Positions 3,306 through 64,000 of a stretch of DNA of 64,000 bases are shown in pieces. Position 1 is the stretch's first letter; each line of letters starts with the position of its first letter. Origin of the DNA: Pseudorhodoferax soli (GTDB lineage Bacteria > Pseudomonadota > Gammaproteobacteria > Burkholderiales > Burkholderiaceae_C); the NCBI RefSeq assembly GCF_003337555.1, contig NZ_QPJK01000016.1:1-64000 (forward strand), in the 5' to 3' direction. The notes beneath the pieces were generated by a model, which saw nothing but the letters and a program-made list of their open reading frames with translations, ran no database searches and was not told the DNA's origin. A program made the position numbers and the translations under genes.

Positions 3306-4106
3306 TCAGTCGGCGGCGCCGGCCGAGCGCTGGGCAGCCTCCTGCGCCAGGCGCAGCCGTTCGCGGCTGTTGGTCAGGTGGATGCGCATGGCGGCGCGCG
3401 CCGAGTCGGGGTCGCGGCGCGCGATGGCGGCGTAGATCTCTTCGTGCTCGCGGTTCACGCGGACCAGGTACTCGCCGCGCCGGTCGTGGTTGCGGATCGC
3501 GCTCACGCGCGTGCGCGGGATCAGGCCCGTGCCCAGGTGGCCCATGATGTCGGCGAAGTACGGGTTGCCCGTGGCCTGGGCGATCTGCAGGTGGAAGCTG
3601 AAGTCGTGCGCCACGGTGTCGCCGCCGGCCGCCACATTGGCTTCGAACGCGTCGAGCGCGGCGCGCAGACCCTGCAATTGCTCTTCGCTGCGGCGCAAAG
3701 CAGCCAGGCCGGCCGACTCGGTCTCCAGGCTGATGCGCAGCTCCAGCACCGCCAGCACGTCGACCGTGGTGGCGATGTCCGAGCCCTCCAGCCGGAACAT
3801 GCCGGCCGCACGCGGCGGCAGCACGAAGGTGCCCACGCCGTGGTGGGTTTCCACCAGGCCGGAGGCCTGCAGCTTGGACAGCGCCTCGCGCACCACCGTA
3901 CGGCTGACGCCATAGGCCTGCATGATGGCCGACTCGGTCGGCAGCTTGTCGCCCGTGCGCAGCTGCTGGCTGCGGATCTTCTCGGACAGATCGTCCACCA
4001 ACCCGTGGGCCAGGCCGCGGCCACGCACGCGTGGAACGGCGGCCGCGAACGGCGCTGCGGCGGCGGTTTCGGGCGCGGTGGTCGGCCCGGATGACAGCGT
4101 GGACAT
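3306..4106 (-). CDS. FadR-subfamily GntR regulator (FCD domain)
   Basis: A 266-residue regulator with an N-terminal winged helix (about residues 30-100, including GDKLPTESAIMQAYGVSRTV and VREALSKLQASGLVETHHGVG) and a C-terminal FCD ligand-binding domain. Metal-binding type FCD residues are visible around AHDFSFHLQIAQATGNPYF and the later NREHEEIYAAI helix. It lies between the glucarate operon on the same strand and the divergent LacI gene. A clean palindrome sits 25 bases upstream of its start and a near copy lies upstream of the Bug gene, so it is probably an autoregulated repressor of the glucarate operon that responds to an aldarate intermediate. Confidence 0.92.
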   Translation of the reverse strand: MSTLSSGPTTAPETAAAAPFAAAVPRVRGRGLAHGLVDDLSEKIRSQQLRTGDKLPTESAIMQAYGVSRTVVREALSKLQASGLVETHHGVGTFVLPPRAAGMFRLEGSDIATTVDVLAVLELRISLETESAGLAALRRSEEQLQGLRAALDAFEANVAAGGDTVAHDFSFHLQIAQATGNPYFADIMGHLGTGLIPRTRVSAIRNHDRRGEYLVRVNREHEEIYAAIARRDPDSARAAMRIHLTNSRERLRLAQEAAQRSAGAAD

Positions 4107-4130
4107 GGGCTCATCATAGTTCTTCTAGCG

Positions 4131-59735: not shown

Positions 59736-60764
59736 TCAGATGGCGTCGAGCGGCCAGCGTGGCTTCACGTCGAAGGCATAGCGCTTGTCGGCCTGTTGCA
59801 CGCCCGCCTGCATGCGCATGGCCGCAGCCATGGCGATCATGGCGCCGTTGTCGGTGCACAGCGCCAGCTCCGGGTAATGCACCCGCAGCCTTCTCTTCGC
59901 GCACGCAACATCGAGCTGCGCACGCAATTCCCGGTTCGCCCCCACCCCACCCGCCACGACCAGGCGCTGCAGACCGCTCTCCTTGAGCGCGGCCAGCGAC
60001 TTGCGCACCAGCACCTCGACGATGGCCGCCTGGGTGGAGGCCGCCAGGTCGGCACTGCGCGCCGGCAGCGTCTCGCCCAGCTTCTTGGCCTGGGTCAGCA
60101 CGGCGGTCTTCAACCCCGCGAATGAAAAATCCAGGTCGCCGCTGTGCAGCAGAGGCCGCGGCAACGCGAAAGCCTTGGCATCGCCCTGCTCGGCCAAGCG
60201 CGCCAGCGCCGGCCCGCCCGGATAGCCCAGGCCCATCAACTTGGCCGACTTGTCGAAGGCCTCGCCGGCCGCGTCGTCGATGGTCTCGCCCAGCATGGCG
60301 TAGCGGCCCACGCCGTCCACGCGCATGAGCTGCGTGTGGCCACCGGACACCAGCAGCACCACGAATGGAAACTCCGGCGGATCGGCACCCATGAAGGGCG
60401 AGAGCAGGTGCCCCTCCAGGTGGTGCACGCCCAGCACGGGCTTGTCCAGTGCCGCGCCCAGCGCGCAAGCCACGCCGGCACCCACTAACAGCGCACCGGC
60501 CAGGCCCGGGCCGCGCGTGTAAGCCACGACATCGACCTCTGCGACACTGCGGCCCGCCTCGCGCAACACGGTCTCGGCCAGCGGCAGCGCGCGGCGGATG
60601 TGGTCGCGACTGGCGAGTTCGGGCACCACGCCGCCGTAGTCGGCGTGCATGCGCACCTGGCTGTGCAGCGCATGCGCCAGCAGCCGCGGCAGCCGCGTGC
60701 CCTCGGACTGCACCAGCGCAACACCCGTTTCGTCGCAGGAAGATTCGAATCCCAATACCAGCAT
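59736..60764 (-). CDS. tsaD: tRNA N6-adenosine threonylcarbamoyltransferase
   Basis: A 342-residue ASKHA-fold enzyme that, with TsaB and TsaE, transfers threonylcarbamate to A37 of ANN-decoding tRNAs. It starts [18 protein letters not shown] and has the metal-binding [13 protein letters not shown] (His-x3-His), [31 protein letters not shown] and [12 protein letters not shown]. The length fits the family. It is divergent from the nasR-like gene by 54 bases. Confidence 0.97.
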
Positions 60765-60818
60765 GGGGCGCGAGTGTAGTGAGCCGGCAGGCGCGGCACG
60801 GTTGTTGCTCTGAATTCC

Positions 60819-62048
60819 ATGGCCACTACGATGAAATCTGGACTGCATTTTTTGATTGCCGCGCGCGAATGCGAGATCGGCGACCTCGAACAGCTCACCC
60901 TCACCGGCGAGCTGGTGGGTGTGATCGGCCAGCTGGTGCACGCGCTGCAGCGCGAGCGGGGGCTGTCCAACCTGCTGCTCGGCTCGCGCGGCACGCGCTT
61001 CGCACAGGCACGCGAGCACCAGCTGCGCGAATGCGATGCCGCGGCCTTGCAGCTGCGCCAGCATTTCGACGCCATGGACACGCAAGGCACGGCGGTGCGC
61101 AACGGCGCGAGGCTGTTCGGCCGCATCGCCACGGTGTTGCAGGCGCTGGACGGATTGCCGGCGCTGCGCAGCGACATCGCCGCCCTGGCGGTCACGCCGC
61201 AGGCGGCCACGGCCGCTTTCGTGCGGCTTGTGGCCGGGCTGCTCCAGGTGGTGTTCGAGGCCGCCGACAGCGCCACCGACCCGCAGATCTCGCGTGCGCT
61301 CGTGGCCTTGTTCAACTTCATGCAGGGCAAGGAGTTCGCTGGACAGGAGCGTGCCTTCGGCGGCACCTGCTTCGCCGAAGGCCAGATGGAGAGCAGCCGC
61401 GCCCAGCAATGGCTGGAACTCATCGAATCGCAGGAGCGGTGCTTTCTCATCGCGCTCGACTTTTCCGACACGGCCGTGCAGGCCGCCTGGCGCGGCGCCG
61501 TCGACACGCGCACCCAGGCCGACCTCGAACGGCTGCGCCGCATCGGCTGCACGCTGCGCGCCGACGGCCTGCTCGACCCGGAACTGGCCCAGGGCTGGTA
61601 TGACTGCTGCACCCAGCGCATCGACGCGATGCGCGGCGTCGAGGAACTGCAGGCCGCCCAGCTGTTGCAGCTGTGCGCCTCGCGCATCGCTAAGGCGCGC
61701 GACGAACTGCGCAACCACGAGGCCATCCGCGACGCGCTGGTGCGCACGGCCGGAACGAGCGACGCGGGCGAACAGGTGCCGAACTACGGCCCGCACCTGG
61801 AGCGCTCCATCCTCGACCTGGTGCAGGACCAGGCACGCCGGCTGCAGCAGATGGCCGACGAGCTGGACACCGTGCGCGCCTCGCTCAACGAGCGCAAGAT
61901 CATCGAGCGTGCCAAGGGCCTGCTCATGGCCACGCGCAAGCTCAGCGAGGCCGACGCGCACAAGATGCTGCGCCAGACCGCAATGAACCAGAACCGCAAG
62001 CTGCTGGACGTGGCGCAGTCGGTGCTGGCGCTGTCCGACTACCTCTGA
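60819..62048 (+). CDS. nasR: Nitrate-responsive antiterminator (NIT-ANTAR protein, NasR type)
   Basis: A 409-residue regulator. The N-terminal two-thirds is an all-helical nitrate/nitrite-sensing (NIT) domain ([20 protein letters not shown] at the start, with the conserved Arg pair that binds nitrate). The last 60 residues form an ANTAR RNA-binding domain ([42 protein letters not shown]). In Klebsiella NasR, nitrate binding lets ANTAR hold a two-hairpin RNA and prevent termination in the nasF leader. The 325-base region that follows contains exactly such elements before a nitrate-type ABC gene. Confidence 0.93.
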
Positions 62049-62065
62049 ACGGTGCGTGCCGCGCC

Positions 62066-62080
62066 GCACGAGTTTTGTGC
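62066..62080. promoter_or_regulatory. NtrC-type enhancer site GCAC-N7-GTGC
   Basis: GCACGAGTTTTGTGC matches the NtrC core GCAC-N7-GTGC. It is centred about 130 bases upstream of the sigma-54 -24 element, a normal enhancer distance. Further GCACC half sites occur at 62095, 62112 and 62182. Confidence 0.55.
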
Positions 62081-62200
62081 CCGGGCCACGGCGCGCACCA
62101 TCTTCGCCCATGCACCATGCCAGCGGCACGCCATCAACAATCCACCACAAGCTGTTGATTTGTATGGGAAGCATGCGCTGAGCACCGTCATCAACCAGGC

Positions 62201-62216
62201 TGGCACGCGACCTGCA
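62201..62216 (+). promoter_or_regulatory. Predicted sigma-54 promoter of the nitrate operon
   Basis: TGGCACGCGACCTGCA matches TGGCACG-N4-TTGCW at all but one fixed position, with exact spacing. Transcription would begin about 12 bases after the GC, near 62227, just before the first leader hairpin. Confidence 0.75.
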
Positions 62217-62230
62217 TAGCACCAGCACAC

Positions 62231-62286
62231 CCGAGCCAACGGCGGCCTGGGTTCAAGGCTTCAGGGCCACAAGGACAACGGCGTCC
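62231..62286 (+). ncRNA. ANTAR-type two-hairpin antiterminator element
   Basis: Hairpin P1 (62231-62250) has a seven-base-pair stem CCGAGCC/GGCCTGG with one A-C mismatch and one G-U pair, closing the six-base loop AACGGC. After 22 bases, hairpin P2 (62273-62286) has stem GGAC/GTCC closing the same loop AACGGC. A at loop position 1 and G at position 4 are the hallmark of RNAs bound by ANTAR domains. P2 shares its bases with the 5' arm of the following terminator, so the two structures exclude each other. Confidence 0.8.
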
Positions 62287-62339
62287 ATTTCTCGAACCGC
62301 GACATGTCGCGGTCAGGAAATGGACGCCGTTTTTGTTTT
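62277..62339 (+). terminator. Leader intrinsic terminator of the nitrate operon
   Basis: A 14- to 15-base perfect stem (62277-62291 with 62317-62331; ACGGCGTCCATTTC with GAAATGGACGCCGT) encloses a second hairpin from the palindrome ACCGCGACATGTCGCGGT (62296-62313) and is followed by TTTTTGTTTT. It lies before the ATG at 62374 and so would stop transcription unless the ANTAR element forms. Confidence 0.88.
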
Positions 62340-62373
62340 CCAGCTTCCCTTCTGTTCCATCCCAGGAGTTCGC

Positions 62374-63630
62374 ATGACCCTACACGCTCCCTCCCGCCCG
62401 GCCCCGGCACGGCGCGACTTCATCCGCAAAGCCGGCGCCGTCGCGACCACCGCCCTGCTGGGCGACCTGGTCACGCGCGGCGCCTGGGCCGCGGGCTCCG
62501 ATGCGCCCGAAAAGAAGGAAGTGAAGATCGGCTTCATCCCGTTGACCGACTGCGCCAGCGTGGTCATGGCCTCGGTGCTGGGCATCGACCAGAAATACGG
62601 CGTCAAGATCATCCCGAGCAAGGAAGCCAGCTGGGCCGGCGTGCGCGACAAGCTCACCAACGGCGAGCTGGACATGGCCCACGTGCTGTACGGCCTGGTC
62701 TACGGCGTGCACGTCGGCGTCGGTGGCCCCAAGAAGGACATGGCCGTGCTGATGGGGCTGAACCGCAACGGCCAGGCCATCACGTTGTCCAAGCAGCTGG
62801 CCGACAAGGGTGCGGTGGACGGCCCGTCGCTGGCCAAGCTGATGGCCAAGGAAAAGCGCACCTACACCTTCGCCGGCACCTTCCCCACCAGCACGCACAC
62901 CATGTGGCTGAACTACTGGATGGCGTCCGCAGGCATCAGCCCCGTGGCGGACGCCAAGGTCATCGTGGTGCCGCCGCCGCAGATGGTGGCCAACATGCGC
63001 GTGGGCAACATGGACGGCTTCTGCGTGGGTGAGCCCTGGAACCAGCGCGCCATCATCGACAAGATCGGCGTGACCGCGATCACCACCCAGGACATCTGGA
63101 AGGACCATCCCGAGAAGGTCCTCGGCACGCAGGCCGACTACGTCAAGGCCAACCCGAACACCTGCCGCGCCGTGATGATGGCCGTGATGGAGGCCGGCAA
63201 GTGGATCGACGCCAACTTGCAGAACAAGGCCAAGATGGCCGACGTGGTGGCCGAGAAGTCCTTCATCAACACCAGCGCCGACGCCATCAACCAGCGCATC
63301 CTGGGCCGCTACGACAACGGCATGGGCAAGACCTGGGACGACCCCAACCACATGAAGTTCTTCGACGACGGCGCGGTGAACTTCCCCTACCTGTCCGACG
63401 GCATGTGGTTCCTGACCCAGCACAAGCGCTGGGGGCTGCTGAAGGAGCACCCCGACTATCTGGCGGTTGCCAAGCAGATCAACCAGATCGACCTCTACAA
63501 GGAAGCCGCCAGCGCGCTGAAGGTCAGCGTGCCCAAGGACCCGATGCGCTCCAGCAAGCTGCTGGACGGCGTGGTCTGGGACGGCAAGGACCCCGCCAAG
63601 TACGCCGACGGTTTCAAGGTCAAGGCCTGA
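62374..63630 (+). CDS. Nitrate ABC transporter substrate-binding protein (CmpA/NrtA family)
   Basis: A 418-residue exported binding protein with a Tat-type signal (PARRDFIRKAGAVATTALLG). CmpA/NrtA landmarks are VKIGFIPLTDCASVVMASVLG, the GVRDKLTNGELDMAHVLYGL ligand-loop region and MRVGNMDGFCVGEPWNQRA. An AGGAG site lies five bases before the ATG at 62374; an upstream in-frame ATG at 62320 lies inside the terminator and is unlikely. It is the first gene after the NasR-controlled leader, and the permease follows by 20 bases. Confidence 0.93.
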   Translation: MTLHAPSRPAPARRDFIRKAGAVATTALLGDLVTRGAWAAGSDAPEKKEVKIGFIPLTDCASVVMASVLGIDQKYGVKIIPSKEASWAGVRDKLTNGELDMAHVLYGLVYGVHVGVGGPKKDMAVLMGLNRNGQAITLSKQLADKGAVDGPSLAKLMAKEKRTYTFAGTFPTSTHTMWLNYWMASAGISPVADAKVIVVPPPQMVANMRVGNMDGFCVGEPWNQRAIIDKIGVTAITTQDIWKDHPEKVLGTQADYVKANPNTCRAVMMAVMEAGKWIDANLQNKAKMADVVAEKSFINTSADAINQRILGRYDNGMGKTWDDPNHMKFFDDGAVNFPYLSDGMWFLTQHKRWGLLKEHPDYLAVAKQINQIDLYKEAASALKVSVPKDPMRSSKLLDGVVWDGKDPAKYADGFKVKA

Positions 63631-63650
63631 GCGCCAGAAAGGAGCACCCC

Positions 63651-64000
63651 ATGGTTTCCGCTGTCTTCCATTCCCCCATCGAGGCCATCGCGCCCGATGC
63701 CGCGCCGCGCGACCTCAAGGTCGTGCCCAAGGCCGCCGCCAACGACGCGCCTTCTGCTGCTGCCCCTGCCCCCGTGCGCAAGCTGCCCTTCGACTGGCGC
63801 GGCCTGTGGCTGCGCGTGCTGCCGCCGCTGGCCGGGCTGGGCCTGCTGGTGGTGCTGTGGGAGATCGTCTCGGTCACCACGGCCGGCAGCATCCCGACGC
63901 CGCGCGACACCTGGGCGCAGGCCGTCGACGTGTTCAGCAACCCCTTCTACAGCAACGGCCCGAACGACCAGGGCGTGGGCTGGAACGTGCTGTCCTCGCT
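63651..64000 (+). CDS. Nitrate ABC transporter permease, partial (C-terminus off the right edge)
   Basis: The first 116 residues are in the window. A soluble, Ala/Pro-rich N-terminal extension (about 45 residues) precedes the first membrane helix (LWLRVLPPLAGLGLLVVLWE) and the segment TPRDTWAQAVDVFSNPFYSN, which resembles NrtB/NtrB permeases. A GAAAGGAG site lies before the ATG. The transmembrane domain and EAA loop are beyond the edge. Confidence 0.88.
   Translation, partial: MVSAVFHSPIEAIAPDAAPRDLKVVPKAAANDAPSAAAPAPVRKLPFDWRGLWLRVLPPLAGLGLLVVLWEIVSVTTAGSIPTPRDTWAQAVDVFSNPFYSNGPNDQGVGWNVLSS

Follow-up and report, generated by a model that had tools for sequence, protein, structure and literature searches.

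The interval between nasR and nrtA in Pseudorhodoferax soli raises the question of whether its 325 bases (62049-62373) carry a control region for nitrate uptake and, if so, which signals that region would join. An initial annotation, made from the letters alone, had read it as a complete NtrC / sigma-54 / NasR antitermination region. The window analyzed was a stretch of 64,000 nucleotides (contig NZ_QPJK01000016.1, positions 1 to 64,000, forward strand), and the features at and around the interval are listed below by their positions in it.

60819-62048, plus strand: nasR, encoding a NIT-ANTAR nitrate-responsive antiterminator of 409 amino acids, with the stop at 62048
62066-62080, no strand assigned: putative NtrC enhancer site GCAC-N7-GTGC, GCACGAGTTTTGTGC, read directly
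62201-62216, plus strand: sigma-54-type (-24/-12) promoter TGGCACG-N4-CTGCA, with a predicted start near 62227
62229-62252, plus strand: hairpin 1 (P1), with the hexaloop AACGGC (A at position 1 and G at position 4, A1/G4), read directly
62257-62268, plus strand: linker hairpin (P-mid) GGC-TTCAGG-GCC, its loop not of the A1/G4 type, from progressive folding
62273-62286, plus strand: hairpin 2 (P2, the antiterminator) GGAC-AACGGC-GTCC, with an A1/G4 loop, read directly
62277-62339, plus strand: intrinsic terminator, with a 15-bp stem (62277-62291/62317-62331)
62296-62313, plus strand: apical hairpin inside the terminator
62330-62339, plus strand: T-rich tail of the terminator, read directly
62374-63630, plus strand: nrtA-type gene for a nitrate ABC transporter substrate-binding protein of 418 amino acids, with the ATG at 62374
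63640-64000, plus strand: 5' part of an nrtB-type ABC permease gene, cut by the window end, start approximate

The elements that the initial annotation had named, which are the GCAC-N7-GTGC site, the -24/-12 promoter, the two AACGGC hairpins, and a terminator sharing bases with the second, were all read at the places it gave. Its stem estimate of 14-15 bp agrees with the 15 pairs counted, and its assignment of the upstream gene as NIT-ANTAR was confirmed by Pfam matches to NIT (1e-51) and ANTAR (1.7e-19). The NasR protein also matched the 'nitrate regulatory protein' of PDB entry 4AKK (4.4e-48), and nasR was the sole ANTAR gene found in the 8.16-Mb genome of this strain (one PF03861 match). 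The nrtA-type protein matched NMT1_2 (PF13379, 5.7e-99), and its start (RRDFIRK) appeared twin-arginine-like by eye. For the nrtB-type part inside the window no Pfam match was found, while BPD_transp_1 was identified in the longer contig reading (L146:1202-2575). Beyond the window, the contig encodes, in order, an ABC permease, an ABC ATPase, a stretch of about 0.96 kb in which neither of two tested open reading frames had a Pfam match, and a molybdopterin oxidoreductase of 1047 amino acids that carries a BFD domain, followed by an open reading frame with Glycos_trans_3N and tetrapyrrole methylase domains. At the level of gene order, a NIT-ANTAR regulator gene adjoins a nitrate assimilation operon, as it does in the NasR / nasF system. 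On the minus strand, a long open reading frame (59736-62228) runs antisense through nasR with a C-terminal part that is TsaD-like by eye; the real TsaD-like gene is probably shorter than this frame and divergent from nasR.

Conservation was assessed in 106 stretches downstream of nasR, comprising the window, 78 of 80 named loci (all but L054 and L072, where the sequence stops short), and 27 of 30 loci collected family-wide, where L002-L004 were left out as the window itself and two contigs already counted. The hairpin-2 anchor was found after nasR in 103 of the 106, and removal of seven exact duplicates gave 96 distinct leaders, which are still related to one another; the shuffle controls used throughout leave this relatedness in place. 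The nearest named relatives belong to Pseudorhodoferax, with NasR identities of 91-94%. One contig labelled Variovorax boronicumulans (NZ_VEDO01000027.1) carries a Pseudorhodoferax-type nasR (92%), and its label may be wrong.

Upstream of the hairpins, the promoter pattern occurred once in the window with 0.16 expected, while a looser pattern occurred once with 0.82 expected, which is not above chance. Among the 96 distinct leaders, all had a GG-N10-GC promoter matching 9-11 of 11 consensus positions, compared with 1.4% of shuffled segments, and it was located 63-90 nt upstream of hairpin 2. No sigma-70-like site was found in 62040-62400. The pattern GCAC-N7-GTGC, which we take to be the consensus of NtrC sites, was counted four times in the window with 5.8 expected; the site in the window was thus rejected as evidence taken alone, and it was kept through its conservation only. 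Specifically, 60 of the 96 leaders, the window included, had a perfect match no more than 200 bp before the promoter, versus 0.9% of shuffles, the scan being shorter where nasR was nearer. A search for sigma-54 activators with PF00158 gave 24 matches in the genome of this strain and does not single out NtrC, because all 14 control genomes had matches as well. The arrangement of the NasR / nasF system, a sigma-54 promoter with an upstream NtrC site before the leader, is indicated here by sequence and conservation.

Downstream of the promoter, the stem of hairpin 1 consists of 3 bp, a 2-nt mismatch, and four more pairs, while the terminator reuses the loop and the 3' arm of hairpin 2, the common bases being 62277-62286. 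In progressive minimum-energy folding, hairpin 1, the linker hairpin, and hairpin 2 formed in this order, the last complete at 62286, and the terminator displaced hairpin 2 between 62322 and 62326, as given by minimum-energy folding of growing transcripts and not by kinetics. The RNA of 62220-62380 folded 4.7 standard deviations below its shuffles, and the terminator stem with the apical hairpin alone reached -37.2 kcal/mol. The parts of the leader were individually unremarkable, and the composite exceeded chance: CG-closed A1/G4 hexaloop hairpins numbered 82 on the plus strand of the window compared with a mean of 82.65 in shuffles, while two such A1/G4 hairpins with an overlapping terminator were found once on the plus strand, not on the minus strand, and in none of 60 shuffled windows (one strand each). 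The properties expected of an ANTAR target were found in two respects. There are two hairpins of at least 3 bp with A1 and G4 in their hexaloops, which are kept in relatives, and hairpin 2 is mutually exclusive with the terminator, as judged from the common bases, the folding, and a covarying terminator.

Among the 96 distinct leaders, hairpin 1 had at least three contiguous pairs in 94 and the terminator stem at least seven in 91, which together with the promoter in all 96 supports the antitermination reading of the initial annotation. In the two exceptions for hairpin 1 (L039 and L064, the latter with the same leader as L015), it had two contiguous pairs, and the other elements were present with small mismatches. 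Loss of the hexaloops or the terminator in relatives that keep nasR, named in the initial annotation as the observation that would count against it, was not the rule. Of the three stretches in which the anchor was missed, L053 has its leader about 1.3 kb further on, and L030 belongs to a genome (G022) with four leader matches at E below 1e-3. The third, L077 of Ramlibacter alkalitolerans, keeps nasR in a genome that has only a degenerate leader match (19.5 bits). By eye, the gene after this nasR starts like nirB; it has a sigma-54-type site but lacks the hexaloops, and the degenerate match (L150) precedes the start of a formate/nitrite transporter-like gene, also by eye. In genome G022, the four leaders are on two contigs (L149, L151, L152, and L153) and precede genes that by eye resemble nrtA, nirB, an unassigned gene, and narK.

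The distinct leaders were divided into group A, with 47 window-like leaders (alignment A1), and group B, with 49 Variovorax-type leaders. In group A, changes on both sides were observed in 7 of the 9 pairs of hairpin 1 (84.4% of cells paired) and in 5 of the 15 pairs of the terminator (96.2%). For the two elements combined, 91.7% of cells paired, compared with at most 45.8% when the alignment was slid, and 119 cells carried double changes across the 47 sequences. All four pairs of hairpin 2 were invariant in these leaders, partly because hairpin 2 served as the alignment anchor; since it showed no variation in alignments A1 or A3, covariation speaks neither for nor against it.

The known system closest in design is the NasR / nasF leader of Klebsiella (Chai and Stewart, 1998, 1999, as cited in PMC3369936 and PMC7496416, both available in part). 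The yardstick here was the K. pneumoniae record CP125156.1 and not the K. oxytoca sequence of those papers, and sigma-54 sites in Klebsiella and Pantoea were read by eye. The parallel with nasF drawn in the initial annotation held, as both loci have the order nasR, leader, nrtA-type gene, permease, and ATPase, and the Klebsiella leader includes a sigma-54 site (TGGCATCCCGTTTGC), a P1 loop AATGGC, and a P2 loop AAAGGC. The composite terminator, proposed there as a departure from Klebsiella, was ruled out as a difference, because the Klebsiella terminator is also composite with its own apical hairpin, and its stem begins in the loop of P2. The contrast in linker length stood, at 33 nt from loop to loop with a linker hairpin in the window and 19 nt without one in Klebsiella, although the linker itself is 20 nt (62253-62272) rather than about 22. 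Additional differences are the P2 stem, which is GGAT/GTCC with a T-G closing pair in Klebsiella and GGAC/GTCC in the window, and the NasR proteins, which are 35.2% identical over 75% of the query. The Klebsiella leader scored 14.2 bits with R1, the covariance model described below, and GCAC-N7-GTGC was not found in the scanned stretch of the Klebsiella record.

Residues that K. oxytoca NasR needs for RNA binding include R340, K345, K347, W362, R366, and N373, according to the available text of PMC7496416, which also reports that the K345R variant behaves like the wild type. In NasR of the window, R340, K347, R366, and N373 are identical, K345 is R, and W362 is H, a replacement absent from the variants described in that text. 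On the NIT side of the autoinhibitory pairs, Q194 is unchanged, whereas E191, R193, D201, and Q204 are replaced by S, A, E, and E. The coupling between NIT and ANTAR may differ from that of K. oxytoca, because W362 and several NIT contact residues have changed. The same text reports that RNA binding by NasR required nitrate or nitrite, and that read-through at nasF in vitro rose from 5% to 52% when nitrate was supplied.

Other ANTAR systems share parts of this design, as described in the available portions of their reports. The EutV / eutP leaders of Enterococcus faecalis (Ramesh, 2012; PMC3369931) also have two A1/G4 hexaloop hairpins of which the second overlaps a terminator, but they serve another sensor; for such leaders, the ANTAR dimer is stated to bind both P1 and P2 (PMC3369931, PMC3369936), a model with which the folding order of the window's leader agrees. 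NasS-NasT (PMC3795266, PMC6759348) likewise controls nitrate genes by ANTAR-type antitermination, although sensing falls to a separate protein, NasS, and not to a NIT domain within the ANTAR protein. The PPE1-5' RNA of M. tuberculosis is an ANTAR-binding RNA with three predicted hairpins, but it sequesters PdtaR, and neither a terminator switch nor a sigma-54 element is described for it in the available part of PMC8131098.

We consider it very probable that the leader in the window is a nasF-like, NasR-type transcription-attenuation leader of the nrtABC / nitrate reductase cluster; it would represent a mechanism already known, carried by an RNA of variant structure, with its function assigned by homology. 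Under nitrogen limitation, phosphorylated NtrC bound at 62066-62080 would activate sigma-54 RNA polymerase at 62201-62216, and transcription would start near 62227. Hairpin 1, the linker hairpin, and hairpin 2 would fold as each emerges. Once the 3' arm is made (at about 62326), the terminator would replace hairpin 2, and the polymerase would stop in the T tract. With nitrate or nitrite bound to its NIT domain, NasR would instead use its ANTAR dimer to grip the A1/G4 loops of both hairpin 1 and hairpin 2, and retention of hairpin 2 would permit read-through into nrtA, by analogy with nasF. Nitrate uptake would in this way be placed behind a gate with two inputs, nitrogen shortage and nitrate. 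The Klebsiella mechanism would thereby extend to Comamonadaceae and further Burkholderiales, as a conserved cassette in which nitrate uptake would require both the nitrogen status and the nitrate signal.

A covariance model, R1, was built from alignment A1 without Rfam. In the genome of P. soli it identified one strong site (119 bits), and a second, weak signal (17.2 bits), from the leader's opposite strand, was taken to be the palindromic terminator. The searches with R1, for ANTAR genes, and with the Rfam narK RNA covered the same 300 order genomes, judged from the genome handles. R1 matched 88 of them, and an ANTAR gene was present in 85 of these 88 compared with 63 of the other 212, a comparison uncorrected for relatedness; in total, 148 of the 300 had an ANTAR gene, 63 of them without an R1 match. 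The window itself scored 27.4 bits with both the narK RNA (RF03032) and P11 (RF00625), below the gathering thresholds of 43.2 and 70, respectively. The narK RNA matched 34 of the 300 genomes at E <= 0.001, three of them above the cut-off; all 34 had an ANTAR gene, and 29 overlapped the R1 matches. P11 matched 19 of the 300 with none above the cut-off, and 12 of 369 class genomes with one above it (126 bits), where 11 of the 12 had an ANTAR gene. R1 in turn matched 14 of 15 P11-derived loci, the exception being L166. The strong P11 locus L155 (1511-1667), read along its whole length, has TTGGCACAGCTTCTGC, the loops AACGTG and AAAGGC, and an overlapping terminator, and by eye its downstream gene has a nirB-like start. 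The P11-derived loci L143-L145 and L156-L165 similarly resemble a sigma-54 promoter followed by A1/G4 hexaloops and an overlapping terminator.

The narK RNA model begins with a -24/-12-like sequence and continues with a CCAACGGCGG hairpin and a second A1/G4 sequence, although hairpin 2 is left unpaired as printed, while the P11 model shows only the terminator at the place of hairpin 2. Both families may be sigma-54-driven ANTAR leaders, a sequence-based reading limited by the weak matches and the common promoter sequence. P11, which Rfam lists as a gene and which the available text of PMC12080996 describes as an sRNA regulating the nitrogen assimilation operon, is probably an attenuator leader. 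A literature search within which PMC5737381 and PMC11387622 were beyond reach found no paper with both 'ANTAR' and 'narK RNA'. If the overlap holds, the narK RNA and P11 would gain a protein partner and a mechanism, which would also touch on the role discussed for the P11 RNA in worm behaviour.

The strength of the terminator by itself, along with the chance frequency of isolated A1/G4 hexaloop hairpins, would suit a simpler account, in which the structure only ends nasR transcripts or attenuates constitutively and the hexaloops are incidental. We regard this as very unlikely. A sigma-54-type site stands between nasR and the hairpins in every distinct leader, the loop-bearing hairpin 1 covaries, the leader co-occurs with ANTAR genes, and the leaders in G022 precede gene starts that by eye are nirB-like and narK-like. 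A terminated leader could also work mainly in trans instead of attenuating in cis, either as a P11-like small RNA or as a NasR decoy. The filing of the related P11 as a gene in Rfam and its description as an sRNA in the part of PMC12080996 available agree with this, as do RNAs that titrate ANTAR regulators in trans in Listeria and Enterococcus and the three-hairpin PdtaR-binding RNA of M. tuberculosis (PMC8131098, in part). However, the overlap of hexaloop and terminator and the place directly before the operon point to control in cis, and only a single strong leader was found in the genome. Attenuation would itself yield a terminated RNA, which could act additionally, and a role mainly in trans is given little credence here.

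The putative attenuation leader of the window departs from those of Klebsiella and eut in its linker. Published eut linkers are 5-12 nt, and linker length matters, as a 14-nt linker in a eutP construct drastically cut induction (PMC3369931, in part). The 20-nt linker of the window exceeds both; it contains a 12-nt hairpin and is reduced to 8 nt if this hairpin is discounted. In group A, the loop-to-loop distance was 32-38 nt in 42 of 47 leaders and the linker folded in 41, while in group B the distance was 21-25 nt in 48 of 49 and the linker folded in 15. A linker hexaloop with a C-G or G-C closing pair was found in 29 of the 47 group A leaders compared with 20% of shuffles, and none of these 29 was of the A1/G4 type.

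It is about evenly balanced whether the linker hairpin restores the spacing, so that the effective distance between P1 and P2 would be about 8 unpaired nt and not 20 nt, and we think it possible, somewhat short of an even chance, that the hairpin is instead a by-product of GC-rich sequence with no spacing role. The linkers of group A were more stable than their shuffles (mean -4.46 versus -2.27 kcal/mol in 45 of 47 sequences), which speaks against a by-product. So does an alignment of 36 of the 47 leaders, from which 11 with short or divergent linkers had been excluded beforehand: each of the five pairs had both-side changes in one or more sequences, and pairing was seen in 78.7% of cells compared with at most 39.6% when slid, with 30 sequences counting. 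The remaining six rows, including those of the window and its four nearest relatives, are gapped at this place, and the covariation hence speaks for the relatives and not for the window's own letters. RNAalifold gave no consensus structure on the 36-sequence alignment, in favour of the by-product.

Linker energies were also sought in 48 further loci, of which 40 could be resolved and several are from the window's own family. Among these, 11 leaders, mostly from other families, with distances of 32-40 nt hardly differed from shuffles (mean -6.2 versus -5.8), and since length alone favours folding, a spacer role is plausible at most. Ten leaders with distances over 40 nt were more stable than shuffles (-14.5 versus -9.8), although some of their linkers contain another hexaloop. 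Within neither group did the loop-to-loop distances become more uniform once the linker hairpin was subtracted, in part since a freely folding linker also takes up bases of the hairpin arms: the standard deviation was 3.3 raw and 5.67 effective in group A, and 4.04 and 5.01 in group B, while only the pooled spread fell, from 6.49 to 5.36. The spacer idea is for this reason a suggestion and not a result; it is testable, because a linker of 14 nt is already too long in eutP.

In group B, an additional hairpin upstream of P1 was found in 47 of 49 leaders, and some such hairpin appeared in 73% of shuffles. Its position was more regular, with the loop starting 33-37 nt from the promoter TGG in 40 of 49, and P1 of the window stands at 37 nt. 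The usual stem was GACC/GGTC or a covarying version, with both-side changes in 3 of 5 pairs and 91.3% of cells paired (47 of 49 sequences). Three A1/G4 loops on stems of at least 4 bp were found in 3 of the 96 leaders, namely L063, L071, and L093.

The R1 and P11 searches provided 44 further leaders, mostly from other families, of which 37 were usable, as six had no hairpin-2 anchor and one had no promoter. Seven of the 37 had two A1/G4 hexaloops, with 5 bp or more in their stems, ahead of hairpin 2, giving three in all (L120, L124, L133, L135, L136, L140, and L145), while one or more hexaloop hairpins of that kind occurred in 0.46% of their shuffles. These seven span five families by taxon codes, and the binomial value of the excess, 4e-10, ignores relatedness. 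Among the matches listed in a literature search, no report of nitrate leaders with three hexaloops was found.

A joint reading, which we hold tentatively and at slightly under even confidence, is that the nitrate ANTAR leaders of Burkholderiales, the Rfam narK RNA and P11 included, are three-hairpin arrays positioned relative to the promoter. The hairpin overlapping the terminator would carry a recognition loop. The partner loop would be in the first hairpin in window-type leaders, where the middle one is reduced to a spacer; in the middle hairpin in Variovorax-type leaders, where the first is plain; or in both, as in the seven leaders with three A1/G4 hexaloops. A hairpin without a recognition loop would hold the gripped pair at a working distance, a third loop would provide an alternative way of forming the binding site, and P11 would be the terminated product made when nitrate is absent. 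The linker hairpin and the three-loop leaders would form a natural series for testing how the distance between two RNA hairpins is gauged by an ANTAR dimer. In Burkholderia pyrrocinia, a leader at 4040-4130 of locus L177 has AACAGC as its second hexaloop, with A at position 4, and a linker that holds a hairpin of at least 7 bp.
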